This document shows, piece after piece, positions 36,315 through 63,245 of a DNA stretch of 64,000 bases. How positions within the stretch are numbered: the stretch's first letter is position 1; each line of letters opens with the position of its first letter. The notes under the pieces are model-generated. The model saw only the letters and a program-made list of their open reading frames with translations. It was not told the origin of the DNA and made no database searches. Source of the stretch: Chloranthus sessilifolius (Eukaryota > Streptophyta > Magnoliopsida > Chloranthales > Chloranthaceae); assembly GCA_021018995.1 (NCBI GenBank), contig CM037593.1, positions 34,919,810-34,983,809 of the forward strand, given 5' to 3'. Both the position numbers and the translations under genes were made by a program.

Positions 36315-36501
36315 TGTAACGACCCTAAAATTTTGATAACACCTGATTGCTTTGGTATACGTGTCAGGCACGGAAACTAAGATAAATTTAAAATTTAATA
36401 AAAATAATATTTATATATTAAGATTATTAATCCGTTAGTGTGTGAAACCATGTGTCAAGTGTGGCACAAATCTGAGGCTTGATTAGACCTCCTATTGAAT
36501 G

Positions 36502-36526
36502 ATACATACCTAGGTGTGGTATGTAT
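36502..36526. promoter_or_regulatory. Inverted repeat in U3 of LTR A
   Basis: ATACATACC and GGTATGTAT, nine paired bases around a 7-base loop, followed by GCTCAACAC. It is equivalent in position to 40535-40558 in LTR B with three compensated changes. Confidence 0.7.
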
Positions 36527-37059
36527 GCTCAACACCTGAATGGAAACTTAGAGAGGAAAAAATCAGAGATATATCTCTATTTTAGCTTATAAGAAAAGGA
36601 AGAGATTGGAACTTCACCTCTCTTCATCTCCTTCCTCTGATCTGGTCTGGTTTCTGCTTGCAAAAATCACAAGGTGTACGTGATTCGAGTTCTAGAGAAA
36701 CTCCTTCTGTGAAACTTGCATAAGAGAGAACCTTATTTTCATGATAGTCTGACTTAGAGCTTGAAGGAGTCGACATCTATGAGTGAACACCTCTGTGTAT
36801 TAGCGTAGAGTTGTACCTTTGGTTCTTCAGAGAGCTCAAAGCGACAAACCCTTCGATTCGATCCAAGAACCCACAGGGGATCACAATGCCGTGAACTAAG
36901 AAGCAACCTTCAAAAGAGGTGAGTTATTATGGGTTTTATATGGGTTTGATGTCATAATTATGTGTTTAATGAGGGCTTGAGTGATTCATGAAGAATCATA
37001 ATGAGTTAGGGTTGAAATGGGTTTAAATCAACGAACCCCATTAATGACAGATGTTGTCA

Positions 37060-37680
37060 TTTTCGATCGATCAAATTGGATATTTGATCGATCAAATCAT
37101 AATCCGATCGATCAAATTGTATAAACCCCCTTTGAAATAGAAGGGTGAAATTTTTAGAAGTTTAGGCCTGATATGATTGATCGATCAAATTGGTGATTTG
37201 ATCGATCAAATTTGAAGCTGATCGATCAAAATATGAAGTGATCGATCAAGTGTGAACTGATCGATCAAATAAGAATTGATCGATCGAACTGTGAGATCCT
37301 ATTTGATCGATAGAATTTTATAAATAATGTATAGAACAGGAGGTATGTTTTTCTGAAACTTTTAACTTTTGAAAATCCGATCGATCAAACATAAGGATTG
37401 ATCGATCAAATTAAGGATCTGATAGATCAAATATGGAATTAATTGATGATATTTCCTCTGTTTTGTATGGGTGAAATATTGGCTTCCGATCCATCAAACA
37501 TAGGAATTGATCGATCAACTTGAGAATCCGATCGATCAAATGGGAACTGATCGATCAGATGTTCTTTGTTCTGTCTGTATAAGTGTAAGGTATCTGATCG
37601 ATCAAATGATGAGATTGATCGATCAGATGTGGATTCGATCGATCAAATAGGGAGTTGATCAATCGAATTCCCTGTTTTTG
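37060..37680. repeat. Array of TGATCGATCAAA motifs in LTR A
   Basis: About twenty units of GATCGATC (mostly TGATCGATCAAAT or CGATCGATCAAA) are spread over 600 bases with irregular spacers. The core GATCGATC is self-complementary. The same motif recurs at 60875-61195 in the interior of this element. Confidence 0.9.
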
Positions 37681-38982
37681 CCTGTTTTAGTTTTTCTGAG
37701 AAAAACACTACTAGGCAGTGTACCATTTACTGTTTCGACACTTCTGACACGTAGTATAGTATACGTATAGTCTAGGTCAAGACCAGGACACTTTAAAAAG
37801 CTTTGGATTTACTTAAAAAGACCTTAACTGAGTTTGGAAAATTTAACTTAACTTGTATCTGATTTTGACTGCATGGTATCATAACATCTGTATCTGACTT
37901 ATGTCGTTTTAAAAGCATGTCATGCATATGATAAAGGTCGGCTATCTCTGTTTTCTGCATCTCTGCTCTGCTCTGATCTGATTCCTATATATGCTCTTAT
38001 TTAAAGTTCATGTGACGAATCCTCCTAACGTGGCAGGATATCCACGACCGGCATGGCAAAATATCTGTGTATCTGATTTGTAAATCTCCTGACACAAGTT
38101 GCTCTCCTTTGAAGAGGCTTGATGCAATTATCTGTAATTGTTCATTGAACGACGATAGTCGGAGTTACCTATCGGCACACATCTGGCTATCGCGTGCTAT
38201 ATTCACGGGAATTATTTAAGTATAGAATTTAAGTCATTAAATACTGTATGCATGCATCTGAAAAACTTTGGGGACATAGTCAGTTTCTGACAATTCTACA
38301 TCTATTATCTGATTCATCCGTCTGCATCTTTCTATTCTATCTGTACTATCTGATTTAATTATCTGTTCTGAGTTATGTTCTGTAAACCATGTTTTACTGT
38401 TAGATGCAATTTACTTGAGTTTCTTCTACTGAGCTTAGATGGTTAGTTCACCCTGATTTCTATATAATAGGCTCTGAGGCTAGGGCTCCCGGCATGGAGA
38501 GTGATCCTGATTATTAGCCAGAGCCAGAGGCTAAGGAAGAGGAGGACACTAACACCCCTGCTGATGAGTTCTATTAGCAGCTTGGGTACTTGTCTTGGGT
38601 ATTAGTTCTATTTTGGGTCCTGCACTTGTATTTGGATTATCTGTGTGCCTGGTGGCCACCTTTTTGTATTATTTATTGTAGATGTTACTTATAACTCTAT
38701 ACATTCTGTAGGAACCATTGTTTTGAGTGATTGATGTCCGTCACTAGTGGTACTTCTTGGTTCCTTTTTGAGGATATATATTCTTTTAATTTCATATATA
38801 TACTAGTTTTGTTTCCTTCTTTCACTTTAGAGCCTTATATGATTACTCGATCTGCCACATGGACAGTGTCTGCTCTGATTTTCGCTAGACGGGCATACAC
38901 TATTTGATTTGTTCTGGGGATCATCCAGAGTATGATCCTAATGGCACGGGTTTTTTGGTGTAGAAATCTGGGCTGTCATAGT

Positions 38983-38994
38983 TGGTATCAGAGC
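38983..38994 (+). other. Primer binding site of element A (initiator Met-tRNA)
   Basis: TGGTATCAGAGC two bases after the LTR end. Confidence 0.92.
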
Positions 38995-39090
38995 CCTAGG
39001 CTTTAGGTTGAACCATGGGCTTAGGTTTGATTATTTTTACAATCTATGCACTGATCAATGTTATTATTTTCACAATGACAGACCAGTATT

Positions 39091-40369: not shown

Positions 40370-40534
40370 TGTAATAACCCAAAAAAAATTGCGTTAAACG
40401 GTGACCTCGGGATCCGTGGCCGACTGGTCATAAGTTTAACCAAGTAGGAGTTCACTAGTTGACTCGAGGAGTGATGAACGAATGCGATGTAAAATTAAAG
40501 CAAACATGTGGAGTGTGAGGTGAGATCTAGAACC

Positions 40535-40558
40535 ACATACACCATCTGGGGTGTATGT
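40535..40558. promoter_or_regulatory. Inverted repeat in U3 of LTR B
   Basis: ACATACACC and GGTGTATGT with a 6-base loop, then GCTCAACAC. It sits about 22 bases before the TATA box. Confidence 0.7.
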
Positions 40559-40579
40559 GCTCAACACATAGAAAATGAG

Positions 40580-40589
40580 TATAAAAGGG
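40580..40589 (+). promoter_or_regulatory. LTR TATA box, element B
   Basis: TATAAAAGGG in both LTRs (54691 in the 3' copy), followed by a GA-rich leader-like stretch. Probable start of the genomic transcript. Confidence 0.6.
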
Positions 40590-40966
40590 TTAAAAAACTC
40601 TAACTTACTCTTGTTTGGTTGTTGAAAGAGTTAAGAAGAGAGAGAGAGGGAGAGAAGTAAAGAGGGGTTGTTGTGCAAGGAGTGAATGCAAGCCAAGAGG
40701 GGATTCGAGTATTTAAAGTCGAATTCAACGCGAAGGATCCTTTGGAGCTAAAGCTGGAACCTTAGCCATTCCAACTTTTAGATCCAATCAAATTGGGATT
40801 TGATTGAGGTAAATTTTATTGAATTAAATGCATAGATTGTAGGAGTTTAAATGGTGGTCAAGAACATTTAAAATCATAGGAAGAAGGCTTAGAAAAAGAA
40901 GGAAAAATTGTTTAAGAATGATTTGGAAGATCAGCCCGAAAGGGGGCTGAATCTGGTCAAATCGAT

Positions 40967-41340
40967 TAATCGAAATTGGATTTCGATTAATCGATTTTGG
41001 CCCAGAAGTTGAAAAGTCATGGAAGCCCGATTTCGATTAGTCGATTTGGAAATCGACTAATCGACTGAGAAGCTCTAGCCACTGGAGAAATGAAACCTGG
41101 GGAAATCGACTAATCGAATTAGGATTTTGAGTAATCGATTTGGGATTTCGATTAATCGATTTTGAGATCTCGACTACTCGATTTAAGAATCGACTGCTTT
41201 ATGTAGGAGACCTCGATTAATCAATTTGGGATCGATTAATCGAATTTGAATCTCGATTAATCGATTTTGAGAATCGATTAATCGATTTTGGGTTTCGATT
41301 AATCGATTTTGGGAATCGATTAATCGACTTTGACAGTTTT
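40967..41340. repeat. Array of TCGATTAATCGA motifs in 5' LTR B
   Basis: About fourteen full or one-off copies, such as TTTCGATTAATCGATTTTG. The 12-base core is a perfect palindrome. Spacers are short and irregular. Confidence 0.92.
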
Positions 41341-41855
41341 TCTTAAACTTTATAGTTAACTTTGAGATTCAGGGAGGGTCTTGGACCTTCTTTGTTACAT
41401 CTTTAGTGATGAGTTACATGTGTAATATGGTATCATAGGTGGTACGTATGAGCATGAGCACAAGGAGCCGCGTGGGACCTTGATGCTTGGAATTTCAAAG
41501 ACTTAAGGTAGGGAACACCTTGAACATGTACTTTAATTTCAAGAGCATGTATGTAGTGATATAATCATTAAATTAAAGTTGTTTTAAGTGTGACACCACG
41601 AATATAATAAGGGCATCTGTGTGATGCAAGTGATTAAGAACCAATAATCTAATGAGATTGAGACATCCCCAGAGGATGAGAAAGTAATAAAGGCATCAGG
41701 TGTGATGCAGGTATGTATACATCCTAGGGATGTATACATAGGATTGAATAATTACTATTGAGGCCTAACTGATATAAGATAGCACACTTACACGATGAAT
41801 AACTATATGTAAAGCACATGTTATTTTGTTATTTGGGGTTTGGAGGATACCCCAT

Positions 41856-41953
41856 CGACGTGGCGGGATACCCACGACTGACGCAGCAGGATATCCGTGA
41901 CCGGTACGGCGGCGAATTCGTACACTAGCACGGAGGTTTATCCGTGACCGTAA
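41856..41953. repeat. Tandem block of small hairpins in LTR B
   Basis: Four degenerate units of about 23 bases: GACGTGGCGGGATACCCACG, GCAGGATATCCGTGACCGG, a GGCGGCGAATTCGTAC unit, and CACGGAGGTTTATCCGTGAC. Each can fold (for example CACGGA with TCCGTG). Repeated at 56117-56213; one similar unit is in LTR A. Confidence 0.65.
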
Positions 41954-42835
41954 GTACATCCCAGGGATGTTGTGTAATATTTAACCCCGCCGCCTAGTGA
42001 GAAAGGGGCTTGGGTCGTATTCCCAGGGAATACATGTTTTTACAACTATCTAATTAGATGACGATGAAGGGTATCTCATCGGGGCTCGATGCTATATTGC
42101 TCGGGGATTACTTAAGTTGAAGATTTAAGTTTTGCTTTAGGCTTGTTCACTGTCATTCATGATTAAATCAACAGTAATGTAATACATGCAACTTACCAGT
42201 AAATTGAGTATAAATCACCTGTTTTTAATTGATTTTCTAGCAAGTGCATAGATTCATCATGCTTTGAATATCATGGAATATATGTGAGTTTTGACTTATA
42301 TGTTCACTGTGTTGTTCCCTATTGAGCTAGGATGTAGCTCATCCTTTTGACTATACGTCGCAGGTCCATTGATAGCAGCATCAGAGGCTTTGGGGGACGT
42401 GGATCCGAGGAATTCGGATTACGTACCTGGAGACGAGTTAGAGCCTCCTCCCGAAGACTTCTTCTAGGTGACTCTGCTGAGCACTTTGATAGGAAGTCAG
42501 TTTTGTGAGCAGTTTAGTGCGGCTTGGTATGTCAAGCCTTTATTTTTGAAACAATGTAATTAAACTAGATATTCTTTTGGCGAACCATCTGGGGTGATCT
42601 GTGTATCATCGATGGTTCGGGTCGGTTTTCTATTCATGCAGTGGCATGAGGGTAGAACTGTCTTTTGAATATGCCAGTTGGGCATATTAATATTTTCCGC
42701 TTTAATGAGGTTAATTGCTTTATTTATTATGTGGTGCTTGTTATACCAATGTTTCGTGCTAAGCTTTGGGGCACGGTTTGGATGATCGTGCTGATGGCAC
42801 GGGTTTTGGGGTATCAAAATCCGGGCTGTCACAGT

Positions 42836-42847
42836 TGGTATCAGAGC
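42836..42847 (+). other. Primer binding site of element B (initiator Met-tRNA)
   Basis: TGGTATCAGAGC two bases after the LTR end at 42833. Confidence 0.93.
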
Positions 42848-44485: not shown

Positions 44486-47400
44486 GTGGATTACACATCT
44501 ATAAGAAGGGAAGCGACGTGTCATACGAAGCTTGAGTGTTGATAGACCCGGGGTCTACCCACTCATTTGTTACACCTCGCTTCACAAAGAAGATGAAGGT
44601 CGACCCAGAGGAGTTAGACTTCATTTTAACTGTGACAGTTCCTACTGGGAAAGCGGTCGATACCGAGAAGGGTTGCAACTCCGTGATCGTGAGGGTCATG
44701 GATGGGAGCGATTTTGAGCTACCCGCGAACCTAATTCTGTTAGATATGCAAGGATTCGACGTGATCCTTGGCATGGATTGGCTATCGACTCACTGTGCGA
44801 TGGTAGATTGCAAGAACAAAATTGTCACTTTTAGACCGAATACAAGGAGATCTGTTATGACTCGGATTTTTAAAACCCAAATCTTGTGGCCTTAGATGGG
44901 GTGGACTACCAAAAATGGTGTGCAAGCTTTATACCCTATCACTAACTCAAGACCGAACTAAAAGAGAAACAACTTAATTTAAATTAGTGCAATCTGGCAC
45001 CCGAATCCACTCTAAGGCAACTTTCTATATTTTAAAATAGTAAAGTTAAATTGGACTCTTTCTTTTTATAACATTTGTTGACTTACTAAGTTGGTCTCCC
45101 TCTCCTTCCATATACAATAGCCTCACTCTTTCTCCCTCGCTCTATCGTCCTCCTCTCCCAAAAATCCATCAAGACCCAAGCAGTTTTCTCTCTCCTTCGT
45201 CTATACTGTAGCCACACATTGCAAGCAGCCAAGCCTCCCTTCCTCTCTTTCTCTCTCTCTCTCTTGAAGCCCCACACTAGCCTGAGTACCCAATTTGAAA
45301 CCCCTCTCTCTCGTCTACCCAAGCAGCCAATAGCAAGCCCCAATTAATCACCTCCTCTCAAAATCTCTCTCCCTTTCTCAAATGAAAAGCCCATCACTCC
45401 ACCAACCTTTTGGCTATGCTTGGAACCGAAATCTCTCACATACAAGGCTTGGATTATGAGATCATTGAACATGATCTGTTTAGGCATGACTAGAGGTGTA
45501 GATCTAAAGTTGAAGTGTTACAGTAGGTAGCGCTCAAATGGTCGTTGGCCTTCCTTGTTGAGATCCTAATTGGGGTCATTGCTTCTCTCATCAACCTTGC
45601 TGTCAAAAATATCGCAGGCATGAAGCTGCTTGCTGTAATGGGCTTAATCAATCAAGAAAGGTATCTTGCCGGCTTCATTACTTCAGCGGCATAAGTCTAG
45701 CTCTGCCCACAGTTGCTGCTAGCCTCTATGTTTTAATTTCAGCCACACAACAGCCCACCTTCATCTTCTTCTTCTCCTTTTTAGGCCAACCACAACCATG
45801 CCTCTTTCTCATCTTCCCTGGTGCAGCTACCAAACTCCACTACTTCTTCAATGAGATCGACGTCCGAGCAACACCACGGGTTGGACCACCATCATAATAG
45901 CAACTCTCTATCCGAGTCTAAACACGCAACAACAAGGAACCCAATTGTTTTTACGGATTCAATCATAAGGAAAGTTTTTAATTTTGAGATGGCTCGAGTA
46001 AATCGACGCTCCGATCGTCAATCGACACCAACCTGAACTGTCACAAAACCAATCGTTCACGCTTCAACAAGTGGGTGCCCTTCTATCCATCCAAATCTAC
46101 ACATTTACATTTTTTTTTAAATGTGATGAATATATATATGATGAATTTAGAAAAACTAAAAATTTTTGTTGATTTTGTGTGGATTCACAAAACGGTTATG
46201 GTCAAAGGGTTGACCTTATGGTTGAACCCATCGGCCGAGAACTATAATGCACATTTCCCTTCCACATGGCACCCAAGTGTGCCGATAAATAGATCCCACA
46301 TCAAGAATGGACTGCTGCCCTATTTTATTTTGTTGTGCACTCGATGTGGAGGATTAAGTTTGACCGTTTCAATCTTGAGGATCCGATCAGTTTCTGACCT
46401 TGGTCAAACCATAGACTCCCTATATAATTATATGCTTTATATATTTAATGGCTCACATTGATATACTTGTCCTTATTTTTATAAATTTTAGTACTCCAAA
46501 AACTTGTGAATATATTAATTTTACACTTAGAATATTTCCTGCACTTGTTTTGAAAATTTGCACATACTTTGGTCAAAGGGTCCAGTTTGACCTATTAAAT
46601 TAAACGAACCACATACCCATGAGTTAAAGCCATAAAATTAAATAAAGATCATTTGGCCATCTGTTAAATCGATGGTTAAATTGTGATTAAAACGAACACA
46701 CCTCGATAATTGTGTTTAACATGATCTTGACTCGAATCGATGACTTTCTAAATAAGGGTCCAAAGGACCAAATCAAAGGTCGAAACTTTGAGAGACCCAA
46801 ATAGCCTATATCCTGTTTATATCTATAGGTTTAGATCAATCTAAATTGGATTATATATACCATGAAAACCGTGTAATAAGGATCCAACGATCAAAACTTG
46901 TGTGAATCACACGAGAGTCAATCCTTAGCCAAATTTCACAAATGACCAGTTGGTTTTCATCAGATCGACAAGATCTATCTGATGAGACTAGTCTAACATC
47001 ACTTTGTGATATGTATTATAATACGCACGTATCATCATTATAGGTCACCTTCTTCTCTCTCTTAATGATGAGCGAGGCGACCGATTTATGCATAATATTA
47101 GCTTCCCTTATGGTTAAATGCTTTCATATTACATATTTCATTTGCTTTATGTGACATTCATCAGTTAGAAGTACGATAGGGCATATGTATGTTAAGAAAA
47201 AGAAATAAGATACGACACATGACTTTTAAGCCTTCGTCACGGTGGAGTTTCTTTCACGGTCACGTGGAACTTGGAATGTAGGCATCCATGTACGGATGCA
47301 ACACCTCTATGGGAGTATGGGCTACCACACGAAGTACATCTAGGTTACTATAGAACTCGTTCCTTAGAAAGTGTGGTTAGTGAAGTCTATCGCGCCGTGA

Positions 47401-48560
47401 CCCATTCTAATTAGTTTAAGAAAAGATGAAATATGAATATAATAAGCTACAAGATGTTAAGAAAGTGGGGACTTAAGCCCACACAAATATGAAATCGGGG
47501 CGGGGAGACCTAAGCCCAGAACCGAATAATATTATGATATATTAAGATACGCTGTGGAGGCCAGCTAAACATGAATTAAGTTTCTACACGTGTCATGTCT
47601 TGCGTGCCACCGCAAAATTCAACGTCTGCAGCCAAGGCGGGTCTTAAGGACAATATGATACGACAGTGTCTCGATTTAAGGGGACACTGATTTTTATGCG
47701 CGCAACGTCATCGGGCTTGATGGTGGTTTATGTTATGATATGGAGGTTAGGTGGTTATCGACACGTGGACCTCGCGTGATAGGCTCGAGCAGCGATTCTG
47801 GTACAGATCGTTTAAAATAAGATAAGTAAGATACGAAGTATGTTGTGTAGACGTATGAAATAATAATAAGATTTTTGATATGCCACGTAAGTTAAGTTGA
47901 CAAGACAAGTAAGAAAAGTATAAGCATTAGAAGCATCGTATGCACTGAAATCTGTTATGCTACTTCAGTTTTATTAGTTTTATAGTTATACAATGATTAT
48001 GAGAACTTTTATTATATTATTTATATGAATTTTTAAAGGTTTTATCTTCACTCACAAGGTTGCGCCCACGATCACCTGGGTAGATTGTGGTGGATCAGTT
48101 GTGCAACCCACTGAGTTTACATAATTGAGTAAACTCACCCCACCAAAAACTAACAGCTGCAGGTAAAGATATGGACTATATTGCCCAATGGACTTGATGC
48201 ATTGGAAGATGATACTGATTATAAGGGTGACGACTTGGATGATCAGCTAGACGACGTCAGGTATATATTAATTGTTTAGAAGGATCTTCTAGTAGTTGAC
48301 CGAACCTCTATTTTTGGTCAGTTTGTTTATTGGACTCAAAATTCAATGTAAGCTTATTGAAAACAATTTATAGTGTAGAAGAATTTTTGGTTCACGATTT
48401 TTGGAAGCCCAATTTTATATAAGATCTTAGAAGATATGTATGTCCGCTTATTGCCTTAACAAGCGTGCGGGGTCATGACACGGGATTCTAGGCCCTCGAG
48501 GTTGGGTAGGATTCTGGGTTGTGACAAGATCGTTCTGATTTAGAGGAGAAAGAACGACGC
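44486..48560 (+). pseudogene. Protease of element B, split by element C
   Basis: Aspartic protease: VLIDPGSTHSFVTPRF (active site region), [20 protein letters not shown], then FRPNTRRS, where element C begins. Removing C and one AGATC copy restores the frame into the protease-RT linker ([20 protein letters not shown]). The codon before VLID is TGA where Arg (CGA) is expected; another TGA follows RRSF. The coding parts are 44486-44852 and 48532-48560. Confidence 0.85.
44853..48526 (+). mobile_element. Element 'C': 3.67-kb LTR-type insertion, probable solo LTR
   Basis: TGTTATGACTCGG ... GGGTTGTGACA, flanked by the 5-bp duplication AGATC (44848-44852, 48527-48531). No internal pair of long repeats, PBS or gag/pol motif was seen, so a very long solo LTR left by recombination is the simplest reading. 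A CT-rich leader-like stretch lies at 45100-45330. Its 47030-48130 part is homologous to degraded LTR G. The short ORFs inside (45821-46036, 46075-46461) have no domain. Confidence 0.8.
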
Positions 48561-49500: not shown

Positions 49501-50023
49501 ACGTTTCGTTGAGGGTTTTTCAAAGATATCAGGACCACTCACAAGACTCACACGGAAGGATGCAAGGTTTGAATGGAGTGAGGCATGCGAGAAGAGTTTT
49601 CAAGAACTCAAGACGAGACTCACTTCAGCTCCAGTGTTAGCTATTCCTTCAGGCAGTGGAAGATTTGCAGTGTATAGCGATGCTTCGTATACTGGTTTGG
49701 GCTGTGTGCTTAATCAGCACAAATAGGTGATAGCATATGGGTCGAGACAGTTGAAAGAGCATGAGAAGAATTATCTGACACATGACCTGGAATTAGCAGC
49801 GGTCATTTTCGCGCTCAAGATTTAGAGACATTACTTGTACGGTGAGACGTTTGAGATTTTCACCGATCACAAGAGCCTCAGATATCTGTTTACACAGAAG
49901 GAACTAAATATGAGGCAGCGCAGATGGATGGAGTTTCTCAAGGACTATGACTGTTCCATACAGTACCATCCAGGCAAGGCTAATGTAGTAGCTGATGTCT
50001 TCAGTCGGAAGAGTTAAGCTCAA
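49501..50023 (+). pseudogene. RNase H of element B
   Basis: [15 protein letters not shown], the Glu in [35 protein letters not shown] and [18 protein letters not shown] replaces the usual ADALSR; the catalytic Asp is kept. Stops at HK*VIAYGS, ALKI*RHYL (Trp in A) and RKS*AQLA. Confidence 0.9.
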
Positions 50024-51560
50024 TTGGCTAGTTTAATTTTGGGTATGCACAGATGGAAACTGTTTAAAGATCTGGCCCTATACGATGCAAACGTTGAGTC
50101 TCAAGCTATAGGAGCCTTCTTGGCAGTGAGACTGATGATATTTGAGCATATCCATGAGCTACAGATGAAAGATCCAGCGCTAACAAAGATTCGTCAAGAT
50201 GTGACTGAAGGCATTACATTTGAGTTTTCAATCAAGGAGGATGGTTCCTTATTATTCAAGGGACACTTCTGTATTTCGGATAACGCCGATCTACGACGAA
50301 CCATTCTTGATGAATCACACAAGTCAAGCTTTGCTATCTACCCGGGAAGCACAAAGATGTATCAAGATTTGAAAAAGAACTATTGGTGGAGAGGCTTGAA
50401 ACAGGATGTGGCAGAGTACGTGTCGTGGTGTTTGACGTGCCAACAACTGAAGATTGATCATAGACATCCCGCAGGTCTATTGCAACCTCTACCTATACCG
50501 GAATGGAAGTGGGAATCGATCTCTATGGACTTCATCGTTGGATTACCACGTACTGCGAAGAAGTACAATGCCATCTGGGTAGTGGTCGACCGATTGACCA
50601 AGTTAGCGCACTTCTTGCCATATAACACGATGTACACGGTGGGAAGACTGGCAGAGCTCTATATGAAAGAGATTGCCCGTTTGCATGAGATTTCGAGTAG
50701 CATTGTTTCAGACTGTGACCCATTGTATACATCAAAGTTTTGGAAGAAATTTCAAGAAGGAATGGGAACGCGACTAGATTTCAGTACGGCATTCCATCCG
50801 CAAACTGACGGACAAACTGAGAGGGTCAATCAGATCATTGAGGACATGCTTAGGGCATGTATGTTAGAGTTACAAGGATCATGGGATCAGCATCTACCCT
50901 TAATTGAGTTTGCATACAACAACAGTTTTCAAACGAGCATTGGGATGGCACCGTATGAAGTACTTTACGAACGGCGATGTAGATCGCCCATCAATTGGGA
51001 AGAAACGGGTGAGAAATTTGTTTTGGGACCCGAAATACTTGAAGACAATGCCACCTATGTTCATATGATAAGGGCAAAACTCAAAGTGGCTCAGAGCAGA
51101 CAGAAAAGCTATGCCGATATCAAGCGGACGAGTGTAGACTTCAAGGTGGGTGAATACGTGTTTGTGAAAGTGTCACCTATGAAGGGAGTCATGAGATTAG
51201 GAAAGAGAGGGAAGCTAAGTCCCCGCTATCTTGGACCATTTGAAGTTTTGGGACGAGTAGGGAAGTTGCTTACCGCATTGGATTGCCACCGTTATTCGAT
51301 CCAGTACACAATGTCTTCCACGTATCTATGCTCAGGAAGTACCTTAATGACCCTGACCATGTGTTGAGCGGTCAAGCTTTTGAGATGCATGAGGACATGA
51401 CCATGATCGAAGAGCCGGTGGAGATTTTGGATCGAAAAGAACAAGTGTTGCGAACGAAAGTGATTCCATTAGTACTTGCTCGATGGAAGCATCATCCGGC
51501 CGAGGAAGCTACCTGGGAACGAGAGGCCGATGTGAAAGAATAATATCCGGCCTTGTTTCC
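50024..51560 (+). pseudogene. Integrase of element B with chromodomain-like tail
   Basis: A spacer follows RNase H, then the zinc region: the second His is replaced (AIYPGSTKMY; A has AIHPG), a single C-to-T change. The cysteines are in CLTCQQLK. The DDE core has Asp in MDFIVGLP, Asp in VSDCDP and Glu in TERVNQIIEDML. The C-terminus FVKVSPMKGVMRLGKRGKLS runs to GRVGKL. A frameshift near 51275 moves the rest to another frame: NVFHVSMLRKYL, VIPLVLARWKHH, EEATWEREADV. The last segment is the reduced chromodomain of Tekay-type elements. A stop precedes YPALF. There is no intron here, unlike A. Confidence 0.9.
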
Positions 51561-51842: not shown

Positions 51843-52432
51843 CCGATTAATTGATTTCAAATTGATTAGTCGATTTGGAAATTCAATTAATCGATTTTGT
51901 TCGATTAGTCAACTAGCATGTGCCAGTGACTGGAAATTTGATGAGGATTCAGGAAATGAAAGAAGGGAAATTTCGATTAATCGATTTGGGTTTCGATTAA
52001 TCGATTTTGGATTTCGATTAATCGATCTGGAGGTTCGATTAATCGAACAGCTTAGGAAATTTTGAAGAATTTGAAGAATTTAGTGTGATTTCAATTAATC
52101 GAAGAAAAATTCGATTAATCGATTTGAAATTTCGATTAATCGAACTGGAGTTCGACTAATCGAGTAACTTAAAGAATTTTGAAAATTTTGGAAGGAATGC
52201 ACGATTTCGATTAATCGATTTTGGCATTTCGATTAATCGATTTTGGCATTTCGATTAATCGACTGGCTCACGCCAGTGAGCTTTAAAACTTGAAATTTTT
52301 AACGGATACGATTTCGATTAATCGAAATGGTTTCGATTAATTGATTTTTAGTTTCGACTAATCGATTAATCCATTTTGCGCGGCTTAACCCAATTTTGAA
52401 ACTCGATTAATCGAATTTGAATTTCGATTAAT
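51843..52432. repeat. Array of TCGATTAATCGA motifs upstream of ORF3 in B
   Basis: About sixteen full or near copies over 590 bases after integrase, the same motif as in the LTRs of this element. The last copies end about a dozen bases before the TATA-like run at 52444. Confidence 0.92.
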
Positions 52433-52443
52433 TGAAGCCAGTC

Positions 52444-52608
52444 TATATATATATAAGTTGGGGTTTTGGTGCCCATTCGAAAACTTCAAGCTTTGGGCGC
52501 CATTTCTTCTTCTTCTCCAACCGGCCGAAGAGCTAGGGTTTTGGGCATTCTTCGTCGATTTCCGATCGAGATCACCTATTTTCGCATCGAAACCTAAGGT
52601 AAACCCTA
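52444..52608 (+). promoter_or_regulatory. Probable internal promoter of ORF3 in B
   Basis: TATATATATATAAG at 52444-52457, then a CT-rich TTCTTCTTCTTCTCC stretch (52505-52519). Two telo-box words follow, TAGGGTTT (52534-52541) and AAACCCTA (52601-52608), which are common in 5' regions of plant housekeeping genes. A GGTAAAC at about 52599 could be a 5' leader splice donor, but no clear acceptor was found. Confidence 0.5.
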
Positions 52609-52666
52609 GATTTGTGCCTTTTCTTTCAATTTGAGCTAACCCTCGTTTGAGCTATTTTCACCGACA

Positions 52667-54016
52667 ATGCCGCCCAAAACTCAATTGTCTTCAAAGAAGG
52701 CAACCTCTAAGCTCCTGGTTCGGCGTAAGAACGCCGCACCGCCACCACCTACCCCATCACCAGTGAGGACTCCATCACCGTCGGCATCGGAGACCACCTC
52801 CAGTTCGACGAGCACATCTTCGCGCGAGTCTTCACGCGAATTGACACCCATGCCGCCACCACCCACCAATGTGCTTCAACCCAATGAGTGGTGGGAGGCT
52901 AAAACCTTCGAGACCGACTACATCATTGACCAAACCCTATTCACCAACCCCGAGGTACCGGGCGAGACCCAATGGGCTCGCAATTACCTTCAAAATGTCG
53001 GCCTCAGCAACCTTCTGAAACCAATCCGGGGTTCCTACTACCCTAGGTTGGTTAGACTCTTCTACCAAGGGCTCGTTGATGGCCCTACCGACATTGAGGG
53101 TTGGGCATACACCATCACCCGTCGCCACATACACGAGGTACTCGAGTGTTACCTCGATTTTACACCCGAGACCACCCTCTTTCCACCCGTCGAGGAAGAG
53201 GTTAAGTTTGAGGAGATCGTCGCCCGTATGACCAACGGAAAGACGGGGTCGGGATCCTCCATTAGGAGGGTCGACCTTCCCCACTATATGTGGATGCTTG
53301 ATTCAATAATCAAGTGCAACCTTTACCCAATGCACCACGACACTGAGCGCGTAGAGAAAGTGCAACAGGCACTTTACGCGGCCTTCTGTGGCCGTTGGTT
53401 TGACGCGACCATGCTCATCCTAGAGGGGATGAGGTACATTAAGGGAAAATTGATGAAGGGCAACCTAAGGCCCAAGGAGAGGATGCCGTATGCTCGGCTC
53501 ATATCGAGCATGTTGGAGTGTTACTCCGATGCCCCCGAGTATACCATATCATCTCACGAGGTGAGGGCTACGGATTACGTGAAGCAATTCTCCATTGCTT
53601 CATGGCGCCGTAGCTACAATTTACTGAAGCGGACCATACCGGCTCCAGGTCCAGTTCCAGCGACAGCAGCAGCAGCAGTAGCACCACCACCACCCCCACC
53701 ACCACATCAGGACCCACCCGTGGGTGGGGTACACCCAGTGGAGCCTCCAGTGGAGGGGGCACCCTCCCATACCACCGCTTCACCTACGCTGCCAGCACAG
53801 TCCGCGACAGCTACGCCTACTTCATCGTACCGCCGCCGAGCACCTCATTCCGGTCCTACCATTGAGGACGTGTTGGTACGCATGGTGGCCAACAACGAAC
53901 GGATGAATCGAAGGATGGACTTCCTTATATTTCATACGCTCTGCTACATCTATCCATTAGACTACCAGTGGCGCCTGGCTCAGGAGGAGGAGGGACGAGG
54001 CGGACCGCTTCCATAG
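52667..54016 (+). CDS. Intact post-pol ORF3 of element B (449 aa, function unknown)
   Basis: ATG 52667 (MPPKTQLSSKKATSKLLVRR): basic N-terminus, Pro/Ser/Thr-rich linker (about 24-75), then a folded-looking region of about 260 residues with NEWWEAKTF, YYPRLVRLFYQGLV, RRHIHEVLECYLDF, GSGSSIRRVDLPHYMWMLDS, MPYARLISSMLE and WRRSYNLLKR. An Ala/Pro-rich stretch (about 326-390) and a helical tail (IEDVLVRMVANNERMNRRMD) follow. No signal peptide or membrane span, so it is not envelope-like. The region recalls the 'putative plant transposon protein' domain as I remember it; unverified. Element A has a broken colinear homologue. No stop in 1350 bases, unlike gag-pol. Codon use is visibly GC-richer. Confidence 0.8.
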   Translation: MPPKTQLSSKKATSKLLVRRKNAAPPPPTPSPVRTPSPSASETTSSSTSTSSRESSRELTPMPPPPTNVLQPNEWWEAKTFETDYIIDQTLFTNPEVPGETQWARNYLQNVGLSNLLKPIRGSYYPRLVRLFYQGLVDGPTDIEGWAYTITRRHIHEVLECYLDFTPETTLFPPVEEEVKFEEIVARMTNGKTGSGSSIRRVDLPHYMWMLDSIIKCNLYPMHHDTERVEKVQQALYAAFCGRWFDATMLILEGMRYIKGKLMKGNLRPKERMPYARLISSMLECYSDAPEYTISSHEVRATDYVKQFSIASWRRSYNLLKRTIPAPGPVPATAAAAVAPPPPPPPHQDPPVGGVHPVEPPVEGAPSHTTASPTLPAQSATATPTSSYRRRAPHSGPTIEDVLVRMVANNERMNRRMDFLIFHTLCYIYPLDYQWRLAQEEEGRGGPLP

Positions 54017-54480: not shown

Positions 54481-57096
54481 TGTAATAACCCAAAAAAAAT
54501 CACGTTAAACGATGACCTCGGGATCCATGCCCGACTGGTCATAAGTTTGACCAAGTAGGAGTCCACTAGTTGACCCGAGGAGTAATGAACGGATGCGATG
54601 TGAAATTAAAGCAAACGTGTGGAGTGTGAGGTGAGATCTGGAACCACATACACCATCTGGGGTGTATGTGCTCAACACATAGAAAATGAGTATAAAAGGG
54701 TTAAAGAACCCTAACTTACTCTTGTTTGGTTGTTGAAAGAGTTAAGAAGAGAGAGAGAGGGAGAGAAGTAAAGAGGGGTTGTTGTGCAAGGAGTGAATGC
54801 AAGCCAAGAGGGGATTCGAGTATTTAAAGCCGAATTCAATGAGAAGGATCCTTTGGAGCTAAAGCTGAAACCCTAGCCATTCCAACTTTGAGATCCAATC
54901 AAATTGGGATTTGATTGAGGTAAATTTTGTTGAATTAAATGCATAGATTGTAGGAGTTTAAATGGAGGTCAAGAACATTTAAAATCATAGGAAGAAGGCT
55001 TAGAAAAAGAAGGAAAAATTGTTTGAGAATGATTTGGAAGATCAGCCCGAAAGGGGGCTGAATCTGGCCAAATCGATTAATCAAAATTGGATTTCGATTA
55101 ATCGATTTTAGCCCAGAGATTGAAAAGTCATGGAAGCCCGATTTCGATTAATCAAAATGAATTTCGATTAATCGATTTGGATTTCGATTAGTCGATTTGG
55201 AAATCGACTAATCGACTAAGAAGCTCCAGCCACTGGAGAAATGAAACCTGGGGAAATTGACTAATCGAATTGGGATTTCGATTAATCGATTTGGGATTTC
55301 AATTAATCGATTTGGAATCGATTAATCGATTTTGAGATCTCGACTACTCGATTTAAGAATCGACTGCTTTATGTAGGAGACCTCGATTAATCAATTTAGG
55401 ATCGATTAATCGAATTTGAATCTCGATTAATCAATTTTGAGAATCGATTAATCGATTTTGAGAATCGATTAATCGATTTTGGGTTTCGATTAATCTATTT
55501 TGGGAATCGATTAATCGAATTGCATTTCAATTAATCGATTTTGGGAATTGATTAATCGACTTTGACAATTTTGCTTAAACTTTATAGTTAACTTTGAGAT
55601 TCAGGGAGGGTCTTGGACCTTCTTTGTTACATCTTTAGTGATGAGTTACATGTGTTATGTGGTACCATAGGTGGTACGTATGAGCATGAGCACAAGGATC
55701 CGCGTGGGACCTTGATGCTTAGAATTTCAAAGACTTGAGGTAGGGAACACCTTGAACATGTACTTTAATTTCAAGAACATGTATGTAGTGATATAATCAT
55801 TAAATTGAAATTGTTTTAAATCATAAAAAACTTTGTGAAAATGGGTGTGTGTGTGACACCACGAATATGATAAGGGCATCTGTGTGATGCAAGTGATTAA
55901 GAACTAATAATCTAATAAGATTGAGATATCCCCAGGGGATGAGAAAGTAATAAAGGCAGTAGGTGTGATGCGGGTATGTATACATCCCAGGGATGTATAC
56001 ATAGGATTGAATAATTACTGTTGAGGCCTAACTTATATAAGATAACACACTTACACGGTGAATAACTATATGTAAAGTACATGTTATTTTTATTATTTGA
56101 GGTTTGGAGGATACCCCACCGACGTGGCGGGATACCCACGATTGACGCGGCAGGATATCCGTGACCGGTACGGCAGCGAATCCGTACACCAGCACAGAGG
56201 TTTATCCGTGACCGTAAGTACATCCCAGGGATGTTGTGTAATATTTAACCCCGCAACCTAGTGAGAAAGGGGCTTGGGTCGTATTCCCAGGGAATACATA
56301 TTTTTACAACTATCTAATTAGATGACGATGAAGGGTATCTCATCGGGGCTCGATGCTATATTGCTCGGGGATTACTTAAGTTGAAGATTTAAGTTTTGCT
56401 TTAGGCCTGTTCAGTGTCATTCATGATTAAATCAATAGTAATGTAATACATGCAACTTACCAGTAAATTGAGTATAAATCACCTGTTTTTAATTGGTTTT
56501 CTAGCAAGTGCATAGATTCATCATGCTTTGAATATCATGGAATATATGTGAGTTTTGACTTATATGTTCATTGTGTTGTTCCCTATTGAGCTAGGATGTA
56601 GCTCATCCTTTTGACTTATGTCGCAGGTCCATTGATAGCAGCAGCGGAGGCTTCAAGGGACGTGGATCCGGGGGATTCGGATTACATACTTGGAGACGAG
56701 TTGGAGCCTCCTCCCGAAGACTTCTTCTAGGTGACTTTGCTGAGCACTTTGATAGAAAGTCAGTTTTGTGAGCAGTTCAGTGCGGCTTAGTATGTCAAGC
56801 CTTTATTTTTGAAACAATATAATTAAACTAGATATTCTTTTGGCAAACCATCTGGGGTGATCTGTGTACCATTGATGGTTAGGGTCGGTTCTCTATTCAT
56901 GCAGTGGCATGAGGGTAGAACTGTCTTTTGAATATGTCAGTTGGGCATATTAATGTTTTCCGCTTTAATAAGGTTAATTGCTTTATTTATTATGTGGTGC
57001 TTGTTATACCAATGTTCCGTGCTAAGCTTTGGGGCACGGTCTGGAGGATCGTGCTGATGGCACGGGTTTTGGGGTGCCGAAATTTGGGCTGTCACA
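54481..57096 (+). repeat. 3' LTR of element B (2.62 kb)
   Basis: Same TGTAATAACCC...TGTCACA ends as the 5' LTR. Contains the longer motif array (55071-55563), the hairpin block (56117-56213) and TATATAAG at about 56034-56041, which is mutated in the 5' copy. Confidence 0.93.
55071..55563. repeat. Array of TCGATTAATCGA motifs in 3' LTR B
   Basis: About eighteen units. Extra units relative to the 5' LTR lie at about 55149-55185 and 55440-55555, each bounded by the motif itself. Confidence 0.92.
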
Positions 57097-57109
57097 GACG
57101 TCATCCAAG

Positions 57110-57243
57110 GTATCTTTACGCTTTGAGAGTTAAATTAATTAGTTGATATTCATATACTATAGTCTGTTTTGACGATTTTATGCATATGGATATTCAAAAT
57201 TGTTGTACACTTAACTCTATATGTTTAATATATCAATAAAAAG
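57110..57243 (+). other. Putative intron at the gag-protease junction of A (134 bp)
   Basis: CAAG|GTATCT ... ATAAAAAG|GTACCC. Removal joins DVIQ-G to TLVMRRKGDE in frame, phase 1, at the same codon as in element B. The 3' end lacks a good pyrimidine tract, so splicing is plausible but not assured. Confidence 0.6.
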
Positions 57244-58518: not shown

Positions 58519-59369
58519 GTGACAGAAGTTCGTAGTTTCCTTGGCTTGGCAGGGTACTATAGACGGTTTGTGGAAGGATTCTCTAAACTCTCAGGTCCGC
58601 TTACTCAGCTTACAAAGAAGAATGTTAAGTTTGATTGGACAGAGCAGTGTGAGAAGAGTTTTCAAGAACTCAAGACTTGTCTGACTACAGCACCAGTGCT
58701 AGCTATACCTTCTGGAGGAGGAGGTTTTGCTATATATAGTGACGCATCTTACAGTGGAATGGGTTATGTTCTCAATCAACACAAGAAGGTTATCGCTTAC
58801 GGCTCTAAACAACTCAAGGACCACGAGAAGAATTATCCCACTCATGATCTGGAGTTAGCTGTGGTAATTTTTGCTTTGAAGATCTGGAGATACTACTTGT
58901 ACGGTGAGACGTTTGATATCTTCACCGACCACATGAGCCTTAAGTATCTGTTCACCTAGAAGATCTGAACATGCGACAGCGAAGATGGATGGAATTCTTG
59001 AAAGATGATGATTGTTCCATCCAGTATCACCTTCGGAAGGCCAACATAGTGGTGGATGCATTGAGTCGAAAGTCTTCAGTTCAGTTAGCGCATCTCATTA
59101 CGAGAGTTCATCGGTGGTACTTGCTTGAGGACATGGCCTTGTGTGACGCTAGGTTTGATGTGAAAGGTTCGGGTGCTTTAATGGCCACCCTGTTTATCAG
59201 GCCAACCTTGTTTGAAAACATTCACAAACTTCAAATGGTCGATGATGAGCTTATGACCATTAGACAAGGTGTGATCAGCGGGACCAGAGCAGATTTCTTC
59301 ATCAGGGAGGTTGGTACCTTATTATTTCGGGATCGGGTGTGCATACCTACCAATGTTGATCTCTGAGAT
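58519..59369 (+). pseudogene. RNase H and linker of element A
   Basis: [46 protein letters not shown] (stop), then [20 protein letters not shown] and VVDALSRKS, followed by the integrase spacer ending PTNVDL (TGA at 59366). [14 protein letters not shown] replaces the usual [14 protein letters not shown]. Confidence 0.88.
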
Positions 59370-60694
59370 ACTATTTTAGAGGAGGCTCATAAATCGATGT
59401 ATGCTATACATCCTGGGAGTACCAAGATGTATCAGGACTTGAAGAAAAACTTCTGGTGGAGAGGCTTGAAGAAGGATGTAGCTAAGTACGTGTCGAGATG
59501 ATTGGTCTGCCAGCAAGTAAAGGTAGATCATCAGAATCCAGCGGGATTATTGTATCCTTTGTCTATACCTGAGTGGAAATATGAAGTCATTTCTATAGAT
59601 TTTATATTAGGGTTGCCCAATATAAAATCTGGGTCATTGTGGATAGACTGACCAAGTCTGCACATTTTCTACCGTATCGTACGACGTATACCGCAAGTAA
59701 GCTTGCAGAGCTATACCTTAAAGAGATAGTTAGACTTCATGGTATACCAGCCAGTATTGTGTGTGATCGTGATCCACGTTATACATCACAGTTATGGCAA
59801 AGATTTCAAGAAGGAATGGGATCTAGACTTGATTTTAGCTCGGCGTTTCATCCTCAAACTGATGGACAGACTGAAAGAGTGAACCATATCATAGAGGATA
59901 TGTTGTATGCGTGTATGCTAGACTTTCACGGGTCATGGGATCAATATTTGCCTCTGATTGAGTTCGCGTACAACCATAGCTATCAGTCTAGTATTGGCAT
60001 GGCTCCATATGAAGCTTTATACAGACGACGATACAAATCTTCGTTGAATTGGGAGGAAGTCGGTGAGAAACTTATTTGAGGACCAGATATCATGGACAGT
60101 GCCACCGAGACGGTTCGGTTGATCCGCGAGAGATTGAGAGTTGCTCAAAGTCGCCAAAAGAGTTATGCCGATCTTCATAGGACGCAGGTCGAGTTTCAGG
60201 TGAACTTGATTACGATAAATACAATAAATCTTTTGTTATCAGTTCATTGGTATGGAATTAACACCTATTTTCAGATAGGGGACAAGGTCTTTGTCAAGAT
60301 CTCGCCAACCAAGGGCGTGATGCATTTTGGGAAATGTGAGAAGCTAAGTCCACGTTATATTGGACCTTTTAAAGTGCTAGGTCGAGCTGGAAAAGTCACG
60401 TATCAGATTGCGTTGCCACCACAGTTGGCAAGCATGCATAATGTATTTCATGTCTCCATGCTGAAGAGATACGTGAAAGATCCAACACACGTCTTGGATT
60501 TTCAACCGATTGAACTTTAAGAGGATTTGACCCTAGTAGACGAACCTATGTAGATTCTAGACTGTAAGGATCAGGTGTTACGGATTAAGATGATCCCACT
60601 TGTGCTAGTAAAGTGGAGGAATCATTCTTCTGCAGAGGCTACCTGGGAGCGCGAAGCCGAAATTCGCGAGCAATACCCGCATCTGTTTGACTGA
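59370..60694 (+). pseudogene. Integrase of element A with chromodomain-like tail, intron-split
   Basis: Zinc region AHKSMYAIHPGSTKMYQ; the first zinc Cys has become a stop (YVSR*LVCQQV). The DDE core has Asp in IDFILGLP (frameshift just after), Asp in VCDRDPRYTS and Glu in TERVNHIIEDML. A stop follows GEKLI. The coding frame is split after VEFQ by 60200-60274. It resumes IGDKVFVKISPTKGVM, PRYIGPFKVLGRAGK and HNVFHVSMLKRYVK. Two more stops precede VLVKWRNH, EATWEREAEI and YPHLFD, ending in TGA at about 60694. This is the same reduced chromodomain tail as in B. Confidence 0.88.
60200..60274 (+). other. Putative 75-bp intron in integrase of A
   Basis: TTTCAG|GTGAAC ... ACCTATTTTCAG|ATAGGG. Good donor, and an acceptor with a pyrimidine tract; phase 0. 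B reads straight through the same place (DFKVGEYVF). The length is a multiple of three with no in-frame stop, so the unspliced form would add 25 residues. Confidence 0.7.
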
Positions 60695-60874
60695 TATGCG
60701 AGGTAATTTTGATGCTTGGATTTAATTCTATAATGTGTTGTACCTTTATTAAATCTTTGAGCATGTTTTAGGGCTATACACATTGCTTAACATGTTAGTA
60801 TACCATTGAAATATAACCGTTGGGCAATGACGATGCCTACAGGTCTGTTACACCTGTGATCTAGGAGGACAACT

Positions 60875-61195
60875 TTGTTGTTAAGTTTGATTGATCAAAG
60901 TGGTGATTGCTCGATCAACCTTACATTCTATTTTTCAGACCTATTCGATTGATAAAAGGGAGTATTTGATCAATCAAATGTGAATCTAATCGATCAAAAT
61001 GAGAGTTGATCGATCAACTGACTTTGAATAATGTGTTGCTTTTAAACCTGTCTAATCGATCAATTGGACAAATTGATCGATCAAATTTGGAATCCGATCG
61101 ATCAACCTAAAGGATTGATCGATCAAACCTATCTGGTTAGGGCTTTTTGCTTTTGAAATCCGATCGATCAATTTAGCATTGATCGATCGAATCTA
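60875..61195. repeat. Array of TGATCGATCAAA motifs upstream of ORF3 in A
   Basis: About twelve GATCGATC-type or near units (for example TTGATCGATCAAATTTG, CCGATCGATCAACC), the same motif as in the LTR of A. Confidence 0.88.
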
Positions 61196-61417
61196 TCAAT
61201 TTACGCTACGTTGGATTTTGAAATACCCATTTGAACAATCAAAGAAACCTAATCGTGCGAGAGCCTTTTGCATCCTTTGAGTTCGAAGGTCATTTCCGAC
61301 TACTTTCGGCTATCGGAGCTCCGTGCTCTTGGTTCCTTGGATCGCGTATTTCTTCCTTATCATGATAAACCTTAAAACTTTCCATTCCTTTGGGGTTTTT
61401 GTGTATTTTATCTTTTT

Positions 61418-62809
61418 TTGAACCATGGGACCGCGCATGAAGAACGCTTCACACAAAGTTCCTACGTGGCACCACCACGGGTTCAACAACCCCAACCACC
61501 ATTCATCGAGCGTGAATTACCAAAAGAGTGGTGGAATGCCAAGACCTTCTTACCTGAGCATGAGTTTACCCCGACCCTTTTTGAAAATCATCCCGAAATG
61601 ACGTGGGTGATCAACTATATCACAAAACTAGGGCTCAAACCCATGCACAACCCCTTTCATGACTTTTATTGCCCAAGAATAGTACGGCTATTCTACCAAC
61701 ACCTTCGACGGGGCGGTAACCGTCATCAAATGGTTACCAATATCGATGGGTTGGAATATAAGTTCAACCAATTCCACGTCTCCGCCGCCTTGTAATGCCC
61801 ATTCGAGTATGTGGAGACATGTTGTTTGGCGGCACCCTACGTGAAGGATGTGCCCTCTGAGGACGTCATCGCTAAGATGACGCACGGGCTTCAAGGATCG
61901 GGCCAATCGATCAAACGGGCCCAACTTCTCGACAATTTATGGATGCTTGATACCTACATCAAGTGTACCATCTACCCGTTCTTACACAAATCGGAGTGTA
62001 CGGGTATAGTGCAATAATTTCTCTTCTCAGCTTTTGAGAATCGTTGGTTCTCCGAGAAGAAGGCGAAGGTGAAGAAAGAAATGCCTTATGCGCGATTGAT
62101 CACACAGATGGTTGAGCAGTACAACTTCGTGCGTGAGGCATATAGCATGGCTCCTGGGGAGCCAAGATGGAACAATAACATCAAGGTTTTTCAGCTCAAG
62201 GATTGGACCAAGAGCTATAACCTTTTGGTAAAGCGATTACTGGATGAGGAGGAGGTTCCACCAGTTGAGGCCAGAGTCGAGGCTGCTGAGCGAGCTCCAG
62301 CTGAGGGGGAGGCATACCCTGATATTTCCCCTTAGCCTGAGGTACATGTTAGACCCACCCCCATTCCTCCATGCCGACCTACTCGTGCTGCTACCTCGCG
62401 TTGTCCTGAGCCTTCCACCATTGCCCTAGAAAGTGTGCTCGCGACGTTCAACGAGGGCAACAAGAGGGTTCATGAGAGGCTAGACGAGATGCATGAGTTT
62501 CATTGTTAGGTGCATCGACGATTAGACTTTCATGAGGGGATGCTCACACTACTGATGCAGCACGCTTATCCGACCACTGCTACCCCCATGATCGGCCATG
62601 CCCGCCTGCATACAGTGGATCCTCGTGACTGCAATGCCGAGCCATCCAAACCTAGCCGACTAGACGCACCTACGGAGTCAGGTTCATCATTTGCTCCACC
62701 GACAGGTGATCACTATACCTTTTACGTTGCTTTTATAATTATATATGTATATTTCATTCTATTTTCCATATTAAACCTTTGCTTTGCATGCACGATTACT
62801 CCTGCATGA
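61418..62809 (+). pseudogene. Broken ORF3 of element A
   Basis: Colinear with ORF3 of B: PKEWWNAKTF, W-INYITKLGL, CPRIVRLFYQHL, SIKRAQLLDNLWMLDTYIKC, MPYARLITQMVEQY, DWTKSYNLLVKRLL, a Pro/Glu-rich stretch and a helical tail (ESVLATFNEGNKRVHERLDE). Likely original start ATG 61426 (MGPRMKNASHKV), with a frameshift within the first 15 codons. Stops follow HVSAAL, GIVQ, DISP and EFHC. About 20 residues present in B before MPYARL are missing. By eye about a third of positions match B, so the two diverged well before these insertions. Function unknown. Confidence 0.8.
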
Positions 62810-62936
62810 TTTCTGTTTTGACTGTTTCTGCCTATTTTATTCGATGTCTATTTTTGCATGCTTTGTACTCTGCTTAGCTGTACTCTGCCCTGTACTCTGT
62901 CTCCGTCTGTTACCTCATTGGATGATGTATGCGTGT

Positions 62937-63125
62937 TCTGTGTGTATGGTTGTTTGAGTCACGGTGGAGTGTTCTTCCGAGCACGTGACCCTTGGGACGG
63001 ATGTATCCATGTACGGATGCAATCCTCTATGGTATTCTCGGATGTCACACATAATACATCCAGATTACTATGGATCCCGACCCTTCATACGCGTGCTTAG
63101 TGAAGACTATTGCACTGTGACCCAC
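62937..63125 (+). repeat. Block in A related to LTRs C and G
   Basis: GTCACGGTGGAGT, ATCCATGTACGGATGCAA, ATCTAG/CAG-TTACTATGGA-like and GTGACCCA words occur in the same order and spacing as 47238-47412 in element C. Confidence 0.8.
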
Positions 63126-63232
63126 TCGTAAAGATTGAGACTATTTTTTTCTGCTTTGTTCTATAAATTAGGACTAGGGAACACTGTAGGCCTGTTTAGA
63201 CCTGTCTGAGATTTTCGAGGACGAAAATTTCT

Positions 63233-63245
63233 AAGGGGGGGAGAA
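63233..63245 (+). other. Polypurine tract of element A
   Basis: AAGGGGGGGAGAA immediately before the 3' LTR. Confidence 0.85.

Follow-up and report, generated by a model that had tools for sequence, protein, structure and literature searches.

The function of the "env-like" open reading frames (ORFs) that lie behind pol in plant retrotransposons is an old open question, and a 64-kb stretch of the 2.17-Gb Chloranthus sessilifolius genome (the window) raises it in a particular form: why do long terminal repeat (LTR) retrotransposons in this stretch carry clusters of the same short motif at two separate places, once within the LTR and again ahead of the ORF behind pol (ORF3), with a different motif in each family? 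Three Ty3/gypsy elements of the window, designated A, B, and D, show this arrangement, and so does another family, E, apparently of the Ty1/copia superfamily, which was found elsewhere in the genome. We lean, if only slightly, towards reading these arrays as binding sites of one family-specific protein that would act on both the LTR and the ORF3 promoter and that would most likely be encoded by the element itself.

Element A contains 20 sites of the motif TTGATCGATCAA in its 5' LTR (37063 to 37666) and 11 sites between integrase and ORF3 (60887 to 61190). Element B, which carries both LTRs and sits nested within A, contains 14 sites of TCGATTAATCGA in the 5' LTR (40962 to 41327), 20 in the 3' LTR (55073 to 55559), and 21 in an internal array directly ahead of the predicted ORF3 promoter (51843 to 52435). 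The layout of A is the same, its 3' LTR being cut by the window end, so that its 5' LTR array alone is visible. On the minus strand, element D has 14 sites of CCTATCGAA in the LTR (8325 to 8829) and nine sites after integrase and before a small ORF (792 to 1089). With bounds and counts limited to at most two mismatches for A and B and one for D, all seven arrays described by the initial annotation were present where it had placed them. It had overlooked an array in element C, six sites of TTCGATCGATCGAA within an LTR (22533 to 22674, at most three mismatches).

The motifs of A, B, and E (the last being ACGGACGTCCGT) are 12-bp palindromes, many of them spaced by about 20 bp. Spacings of 19 to 22 bp, about two helical turns, made up 14 of 19 in the A LTR and 7 of 10 in the A internal array, and in B 10 of 13 (5' LTR), 13 of 20 (internal), and 16 of 19 (3' LTR). 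The D motif, first given as CGATAGG, is more accurately A(A/T)CCTATCGAA and is neither palindromic nor regularly spaced (19 to 22 bp in 3 of 13 LTR and 1 of 8 internal spacings). CGAT, proposed as a core shared by all families, proved too narrow and is ruled out as a common motif, since ACGGACGTCCGT lacks it. Chance as the origin of the arrays is ruled out by shuffling and by genome-wide counts. In 200 dinucleotide shuffles per array, the own motif occurred with means of 0.14 to 0.56 and maxima of 2 to 3, far below the counts in the arrays. Exact counts over the 2.17 Gb, with the same string read backwards (likewise a palindrome) as control, were 241,617 versus 55 for the B motif TCGATTAATCGA, 65,226 versus 317 for the A motif TTGATCGATCAA, and 9,483 versus 14 for ACGGACGTCCGT of E. 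The motifs of A, B, and D are family specific, each being found zero or one time in the other two elements' arrays, while the C motif is less exclusive, matching nine sites in the A LTR, one in the A internal array, and three in the B internal array.

The same arrangement recurred in further copies. B copies were searched for with the 449-amino-acid ORF3 against the genome, 94 matches being scored from 55,662 first-look candidates, and the best 30 of the 94 listed matches were analyzed. A genome search with the Transposase_32 profile gave 150 scored matches, and the best 30 of the 150 listed represented family E, which is apparently Ty1/copia judging by a copia-type RNase H end seen by eye upstream in one copy (L041). 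Such best-scoring matches favor well-kept copies. For A, the open piece of ORF3 was used as the query and yielded 154 matches, of which eight at 59 to 71% identity, chosen for divergence, were examined, and for D five of 40 listed matches were taken. At least four sites were present on both the upstream and the 3'/LTR side in 29 of 30 B loci, the exception (L024) having no downstream array, and the number of internal sites varied, with 34 in one copy (L038) and 13 to 27 in 29 others. In E, at least three internal and at least two LTR sites were found in 26 of 30 loci; 99 of the 208 internal spacings were 19 to 22 bp and 46 were 39 to 43 bp, and LTR spacings were 21 bp in 45 of 65 cases. Within ORF3 itself, a single site occurred in one of 30 B copies and none in the 30 E loci.

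Among the divergent copies of A, seven of eight had the internal array, the eighth (L072) having integrase-like sequence by eye and no array at that place. The A LTR array (8 to 28 sites) was found in four of seven pieces taken from the expected LTR place; one of the others (L082) stops short of the array, and two (L083 and L085) hold other sequence with no match to the LTR of A. All five D copies had the internal array (9 to 10 sites), and four of five LTR pieces had the LTR array (11 to 15 sites), the remaining piece (L096) showing no match to D; on the far side of one copy (L087), no match to the D 5' LTR was detected within 2 kb. Moreover, a blind test, which required the commonest 9-mer of the internal piece to recur at least twice in the 3'/LTR piece of the same element, was passed by 29 of 30 B, 24 of 30 E, 5 of 5 A, and 1 of 1 D loci. 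The central observation of the initial annotation, one family-specific motif at both sites, is therefore confirmed for A, B, and D and generalizes within this genome to E, and the outcome that it had named as contrary, copies missing one array or, in most cases, carrying unrelated motifs at the two places, was looked for and did not emerge as the pattern.

A and B are close relatives with the same layout, in which both arrays have been kept and the motif has been replaced at both sites. Leaving aside short matches in other frames or places (34 to 51 residues at 43 to 56%), the identity between them was 53 to 80% in segments from behind gag to integrase and 44 to 53% in gag segments, and it fell to 33% over 380 aligned columns in ORF3, the most diverged protein; at the threshold applied, two 41-base stretches were all that their LTRs had in common. 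That the motif changed jointly at two distinct sites points to a shared cause, which may be a single binding protein whose specificity changed.

To see how the motif evolves, the closest copy pairs were compared with CpG sites set apart, and matched decoy 12-mers were picked by the same rule in 500 sets; L024 (B LTR) and L039, L041, L043, and L044 (E LTR) were left out of both comparisons, and L039 (E internal) additionally out of the decoy comparison. Non-CpG divergence of the B motif was 3.6% in the internal array, versus 9.8% in the spacers and 9.0% outside, and 2.3% in the LTR, versus 9.3% and 9.2%. The B motif thus diverges about 2.5 to 4 times slower than the surrounding DNA at both sites. 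Decoys diverged by 12.1% versus 3.1% for the motif (internal) and by 9.8% versus 3.6% (LTR), and none of the 500 sets was as low at either site. This slow divergence relative to the spacers favors selected binding sites over passive tandem repeats in B; a simple LTR-to-internal duplication in B is ruled out, because the spacers evolve freely. In the family column alignment, which excluded L024 (B internal), L039 (E internal), and L039, L041, L043, and L044 (E LTR), motif columns of E were 93% identical versus 76% for spacer columns in the internal array (0 of 349 circular shifts as good) and 97% versus 90% in the LTR (4 of 69 as good). Close pairs of E gave 3.1% for the internal motif versus 5.9% for spacers and 5.2% outside (Fisher, 0.006). 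D followed the same trend (0.105 versus 0.167 in the LTR and 0.040 versus 0.083 in the internal array), although these values come from all pairs of five or six copies and are not independent. Between copies, motif CpGs also differed less than other CpGs, at 14.0% versus 19 to 25% (internal) and 12.3% versus 28 to 29% (LTR) in B and at 6.3% versus 10 to 14% in the E internal array, which selection alone could yield.

The initial annotation had further suggested that both transcription units of an element use the same site, and the promoters, whose TATA boxes were picked by eye, agree with this in part. On the plus strand of B, a predicted ORF3 TATA box, CTATATATATATAAG (52443 to 52457), follows the internal array at a distance of 8 bp, about 220 bp ahead of the start codon, and is conserved in the 29 aligned copies (the alignment excludes L024); this conservation supports a separate, predicted ORF3 transcript. 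No such clear TATA-like box was seen before the ORF3 of A. The LTR side fits the suggestion less well in A and B, where the array begins about 480 and 380 bp, respectively, downstream of the predicted LTR TATA box (TTATAAG at about 36587 in A and TATAAAAG at 40580 in B, both on the plus strand), in the predicted transcribed leader. A splice-donor-like sequence precedes the LTR array at 36916 in A and 40805 in B, and the array may therefore lie in a leader intron. The LTR arrays of D and E are upstream of the predicted TATA box, which in D is TATATATAG at about 8116 on the minus strand; in one E copy (L047), the LTR sites stand just ahead of a TATA-like ATATAT.

The ORF3 of B (52667 to 54016, plus strand) matched Transposase_32 (PF20167) with an E value of 1e-6 and 29.2 bits, under the 45-bit cutoff, while that of E scored above the cutoff; altogether, this family was matched by 11 of 11 ORF3s scanned, from gypsy B and apparently copia E. 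The protein has 449 amino acids in the window, and relatives including L010, L012, and L031 are longer (522 to 554 amino acids). In A, the region related to B ORF3 is represented by an open piece (61376 to 61792, plus strand), the rest being interrupted, and this piece gave no PF20167 match. By eye, the ORF3s of B and E have a basic N terminus and a C-terminal coiled-coil-like stretch. No ORF3 homologs were found among 7,995 scored candidates in a large protein database, and of four pattern matches in viral contigs none was confirmed.

On the reading that we favor, each array would be a cluster of sites for one family-specific DNA-binding protein; the palindromic motifs of A, B, and E suggest that it is a homodimer there. 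Through the LTR array, located in U3 or in the transcribed leader, this protein would act on the gag-pol unit, and through the internal array it would act on a separately promoted ORF3 unit. The factor is most likely element encoded, since a change of motif must occur at both places together, and ORF3 is the prime candidate because it is the most diverged protein, lies directly behind one array, and belongs to the same Pfam family that stands behind the array in E. If so, ORF3 could control itself in a loop and thereby activate or un-silence the copies of its own family. This interpretation is plausible, with the binding factor putative.

Several results weigh against this reading. ORF3 yielded no sign of a DNA-binding fold: beyond Transposase_32, Pfam gave three weak families (best E value, 0.019), a sequence search of PDB gave only two matches (E values of 1.2 and 1.7), and a single-sequence AlphaFold model was unusable, with a predicted local distance difference test (pLDDT) score of 40.5, too poor for a fold search. 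The small ORF of D behind its internal array (211 to 687, minus strand) has no significant Pfam family and is not Transposase_32, so that, in the elements as they stand here, not every family can have ORF3 as its binder. In the blind test, A and B 9-mers with one mismatch also matched the pieces of other families (means of 3.8 and 1.2, maxima of 15 and 18), and family specificity therefore rests on the 12-mers. In the E LTR, the non-CpG motif was not slower (2.2%, with spacers at 1.0% and sequence outside at 3.3%; P = 0.55), and the matched-decoy test for E was not significant, 40 and 50 of the 500 sets being as low. In the B LTR pair, whose members would be expected to drift apart unconstrained once inserted, motif CpGs decayed about as much as other CpGs (6 of 54 versus 18 of 126), which lends no support to the idea that the arrays stay protected against such decay. 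Finally, the proposal that the motif diversifies together with its factor, still inferential, agrees with A and B, which differ in motif and whose ORF3s are far apart, and is at odds with the A-like elements that keep the motif of A with an ORF3 only 59 to 71% identical to its piece.

The strongest rival, which we nevertheless consider rather unlikely, holds that host transcription factors bind the arrays, a different factor having been recruited by each family, and that this one factor serves both promoters of an element, which need the same expression pattern. The lack of a detected DNA-binding fold in ORF3 and the unrelated ORF of D fit such host factors, and Bousios et al. (2010, PMC2829016), in the sections bearing on this point, discuss nuclear factors and found stress-type sites. 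For a host factor to explain that the close relatives A and B differ at both sites, however, it would have to be exchanged jointly at both, and the 65,226 and 241,617 genomic sites would be expected to titrate it heavily.

It is improbable that the palindromes act instead in RNA or in host silencing, by fold-back between units that gives small RNAs or a leader RNA structure. The LTR palindromes of maize Sireviruses are small-RNA hotspots, as stated in the relevant part of PMC5311732, and the A and B LTR arrays do lie within the predicted transcribed leader; yet the exact sequence, beyond mere pairing, is conserved in B, the D motif is not palindromic, and the LTR arrays of E and D, being upstream of the predicted TATA box, would be outside the main transcript. 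Least probable of all is an origin without function, by tandem-repeat turnover and exchange of LTR and internal units through recombination during reverse transcription: the internal and LTR units of B partly share spacer letters such as TTTTGG, array length varies between copies (13 to 34 internal sites in B), and motif constraint in E is weak in close pairs, but exchange would homogenize whole 21-bp units, which is already disfavored for B by spacers diverging 9 to 10% next to motif sites at 2 to 4%, and the D spacing is irregular, with motif-flanking bases in D and E carrying little information.

Part of the arrangement is already published, namely, its occurrence in Ty1/copia Sireviruses (PMC2829016). 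According to the sections of that paper on repeated-motif (RM) boxes, 13 Sireviruses carry palindromic boxes in their LTRs. Nine of these have an env-like gene and additional boxes, most of which precede the gene (77 of 79 copies in the linker), and the four that lack the gene have none in the linker. The boxes are described there as Sirevirus specific and absent from classic Ty1/copia elements, with nuclear factors considered as binders. The likeness to our arrays is that a palindromic motif occupies the LTR and recurs ahead of a post-pol env-like gene and that the motif varies from element to element. As far as these sections go, differences are that A, B, and D are Ty3/gypsy elements without the CGG-CCG core, that RM boxes lie upstream of the TATA box and the A and B LTR arrays downstream of the predicted one, and that RM boxes are palindromic and the D motif is not. 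E, on the other hand, has the CGG-CCG core in its motif, and 28 of its 30 loci show AGGGGGAG tracts close to the 3' LTR; by these sequence features it looks like a Sirevirus-type member.

Together with the published env-less Sireviruses, element C (19102 to 22807) bears on the case of elements lacking ORF3. Its LTRs of about 1 kb flank a gag-only interior with neither ORF3 nor internal array; the other LTR retains one TTCGATCGATCGAA site (19857 to 19870), and no further such sites were found in the interior of C. It may depend on the factor of another family.

Other systems share individual aspects. In the portions of PMC5735166 on Arabidopsis VANC and VANDAL, dense family-specific arrays of short motifs likewise occupy noncoding parts, and motif and element family diverge together. 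VANDALs, however, are DNA transposons with a direct, nonpalindromic 9-bp motif, and binding and demethylation by VANC were demonstrated there (PMC5735166), whereas binding here is putative. DUF1985 was not among the four Pfam families listed for ORF3 up to an E value of 10, which is another difference from VANC. A second parallel is the foamy-virus protein Tas, a transactivator of the element's own that, in the accounts consulted, binds the LTR as well as an internal promoter. The gene for Tas is situated behind pol, and the internal promoter drives it. These accounts concern animal retroviruses, and the role of the protein here is inferred. Retand and Grande, as far as PMC11963269 describes them in the relevant part, belong to Ty3/gypsy and combine family-specific tandem arrays with an accessory ORF situated between pol and the 3' LTR; TRP28 is suggested there to bind DNA, and the title of a reference cited there points to a nuclear Grande protein with its own promoter. 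They differ in an antisense ORF with another domain (Transposase_28), and that part of the paper describes no LTR copy of the array. The 3'aORF of sunflower Athila elements shares Transposase_32 and a predicted nuclear localization, and the corresponding section of PMC11728184 describes no motif arrays.

Our searches of the openly licensed literature turned up no account of such two-site arrays in Ty3/gypsy elements, nor one of ORF3 as the binder. Apparently new, therefore, are the two-site arrays in Ty3/gypsy, the joint switch of the motif, and an ORF3 family common to both superfamilies. We tentatively propose, as possible rather than probable, that Transposase_32 ORF3s are self-recognizing regulators in Ty1/copia and Ty3/gypsy elements alike, each binding the palindromic array of its own family both in the LTR and at the promoter of ORF3 itself, thereby activating or un-silencing that family, and changing along with its motif. 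If true, this would make them the equivalent of VANC among retrotransposons, with a circuit resembling that of foamy-virus Tas. In that case, "env-like" genes accompanied by such arrays might encode transcription or anti-silencing factors, and a simple rule would account for the mutual independence of families within one genome. With TCGATTAATCGA at so many genomic sites, such factors could also affect host regulation. Matching arrays that switch jointly between close relatives and are found in both LTR superfamilies offer a specific and cheap test, the binding of ORF3 to its own array.

As for the remaining features of the elements, the 5' LTR of A extends from 36316 to 38981 on the plus strand, as a direct repeat with the sequence from 63246 onwards, and is followed at 38982 (plus strand) by a primer-binding site (PBS) located in the sequence; we take the PBSs of A and B to be of the iMet type. 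A has Pfam matches to rve (under the cutoff) and SH3_Tf2-1. B, probably a chromovirus, has its 5' LTR at 40370 to 42833 and its 3' LTR at 54481 to 57096, both on the plus strand, with a divergence of 4.6% (114 of 2,463 sites) between the two. Its Pfam matches comprise gag and, behind the reverse transcriptase, integrase H2C2 and SH3_Tf2-1; the integrase (50018 to 51540, plus strand; PF17921, 2e-16; PF24626) includes SH3_Tf2-1 and a weak Chromo match (PF00385, 0.001, below the cutoff). D matches rve and, weakly and under the cutoff, RVT_1; its integrase (1408 to 2190) and PBS (7108) are on the minus strand, and from its layout and PBS we assume it to be Athila-like.

A few minor observations concern the surroundings of these elements. 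The B interior at 44893 to 48538, about 3.6 kb between two pol segments, shows no pol match to A and is possibly an old insertion, and within it a 172-base stretch (47236 to 47407) is 74% identical to the region of A behind ORF3. A tandem repeat of 47 to 48 bp (2.4 copies) at 16232 to 16348 has no element linked to it. Just outside the 5' LTR of A, at 35158 to 35383, a unit of about 60 bases based on GACAGTGGGTACCCACTGTCA occurs four times and forms another palindromic cluster. In addition, the locus L085 (G000:C5:19760507-19761557), whose element is Athila-like by eye, has ten copies of the 8-mer TCAATCGA (12-bp palindrome, TCAATCGATTGA) ahead of a gag-like frame.

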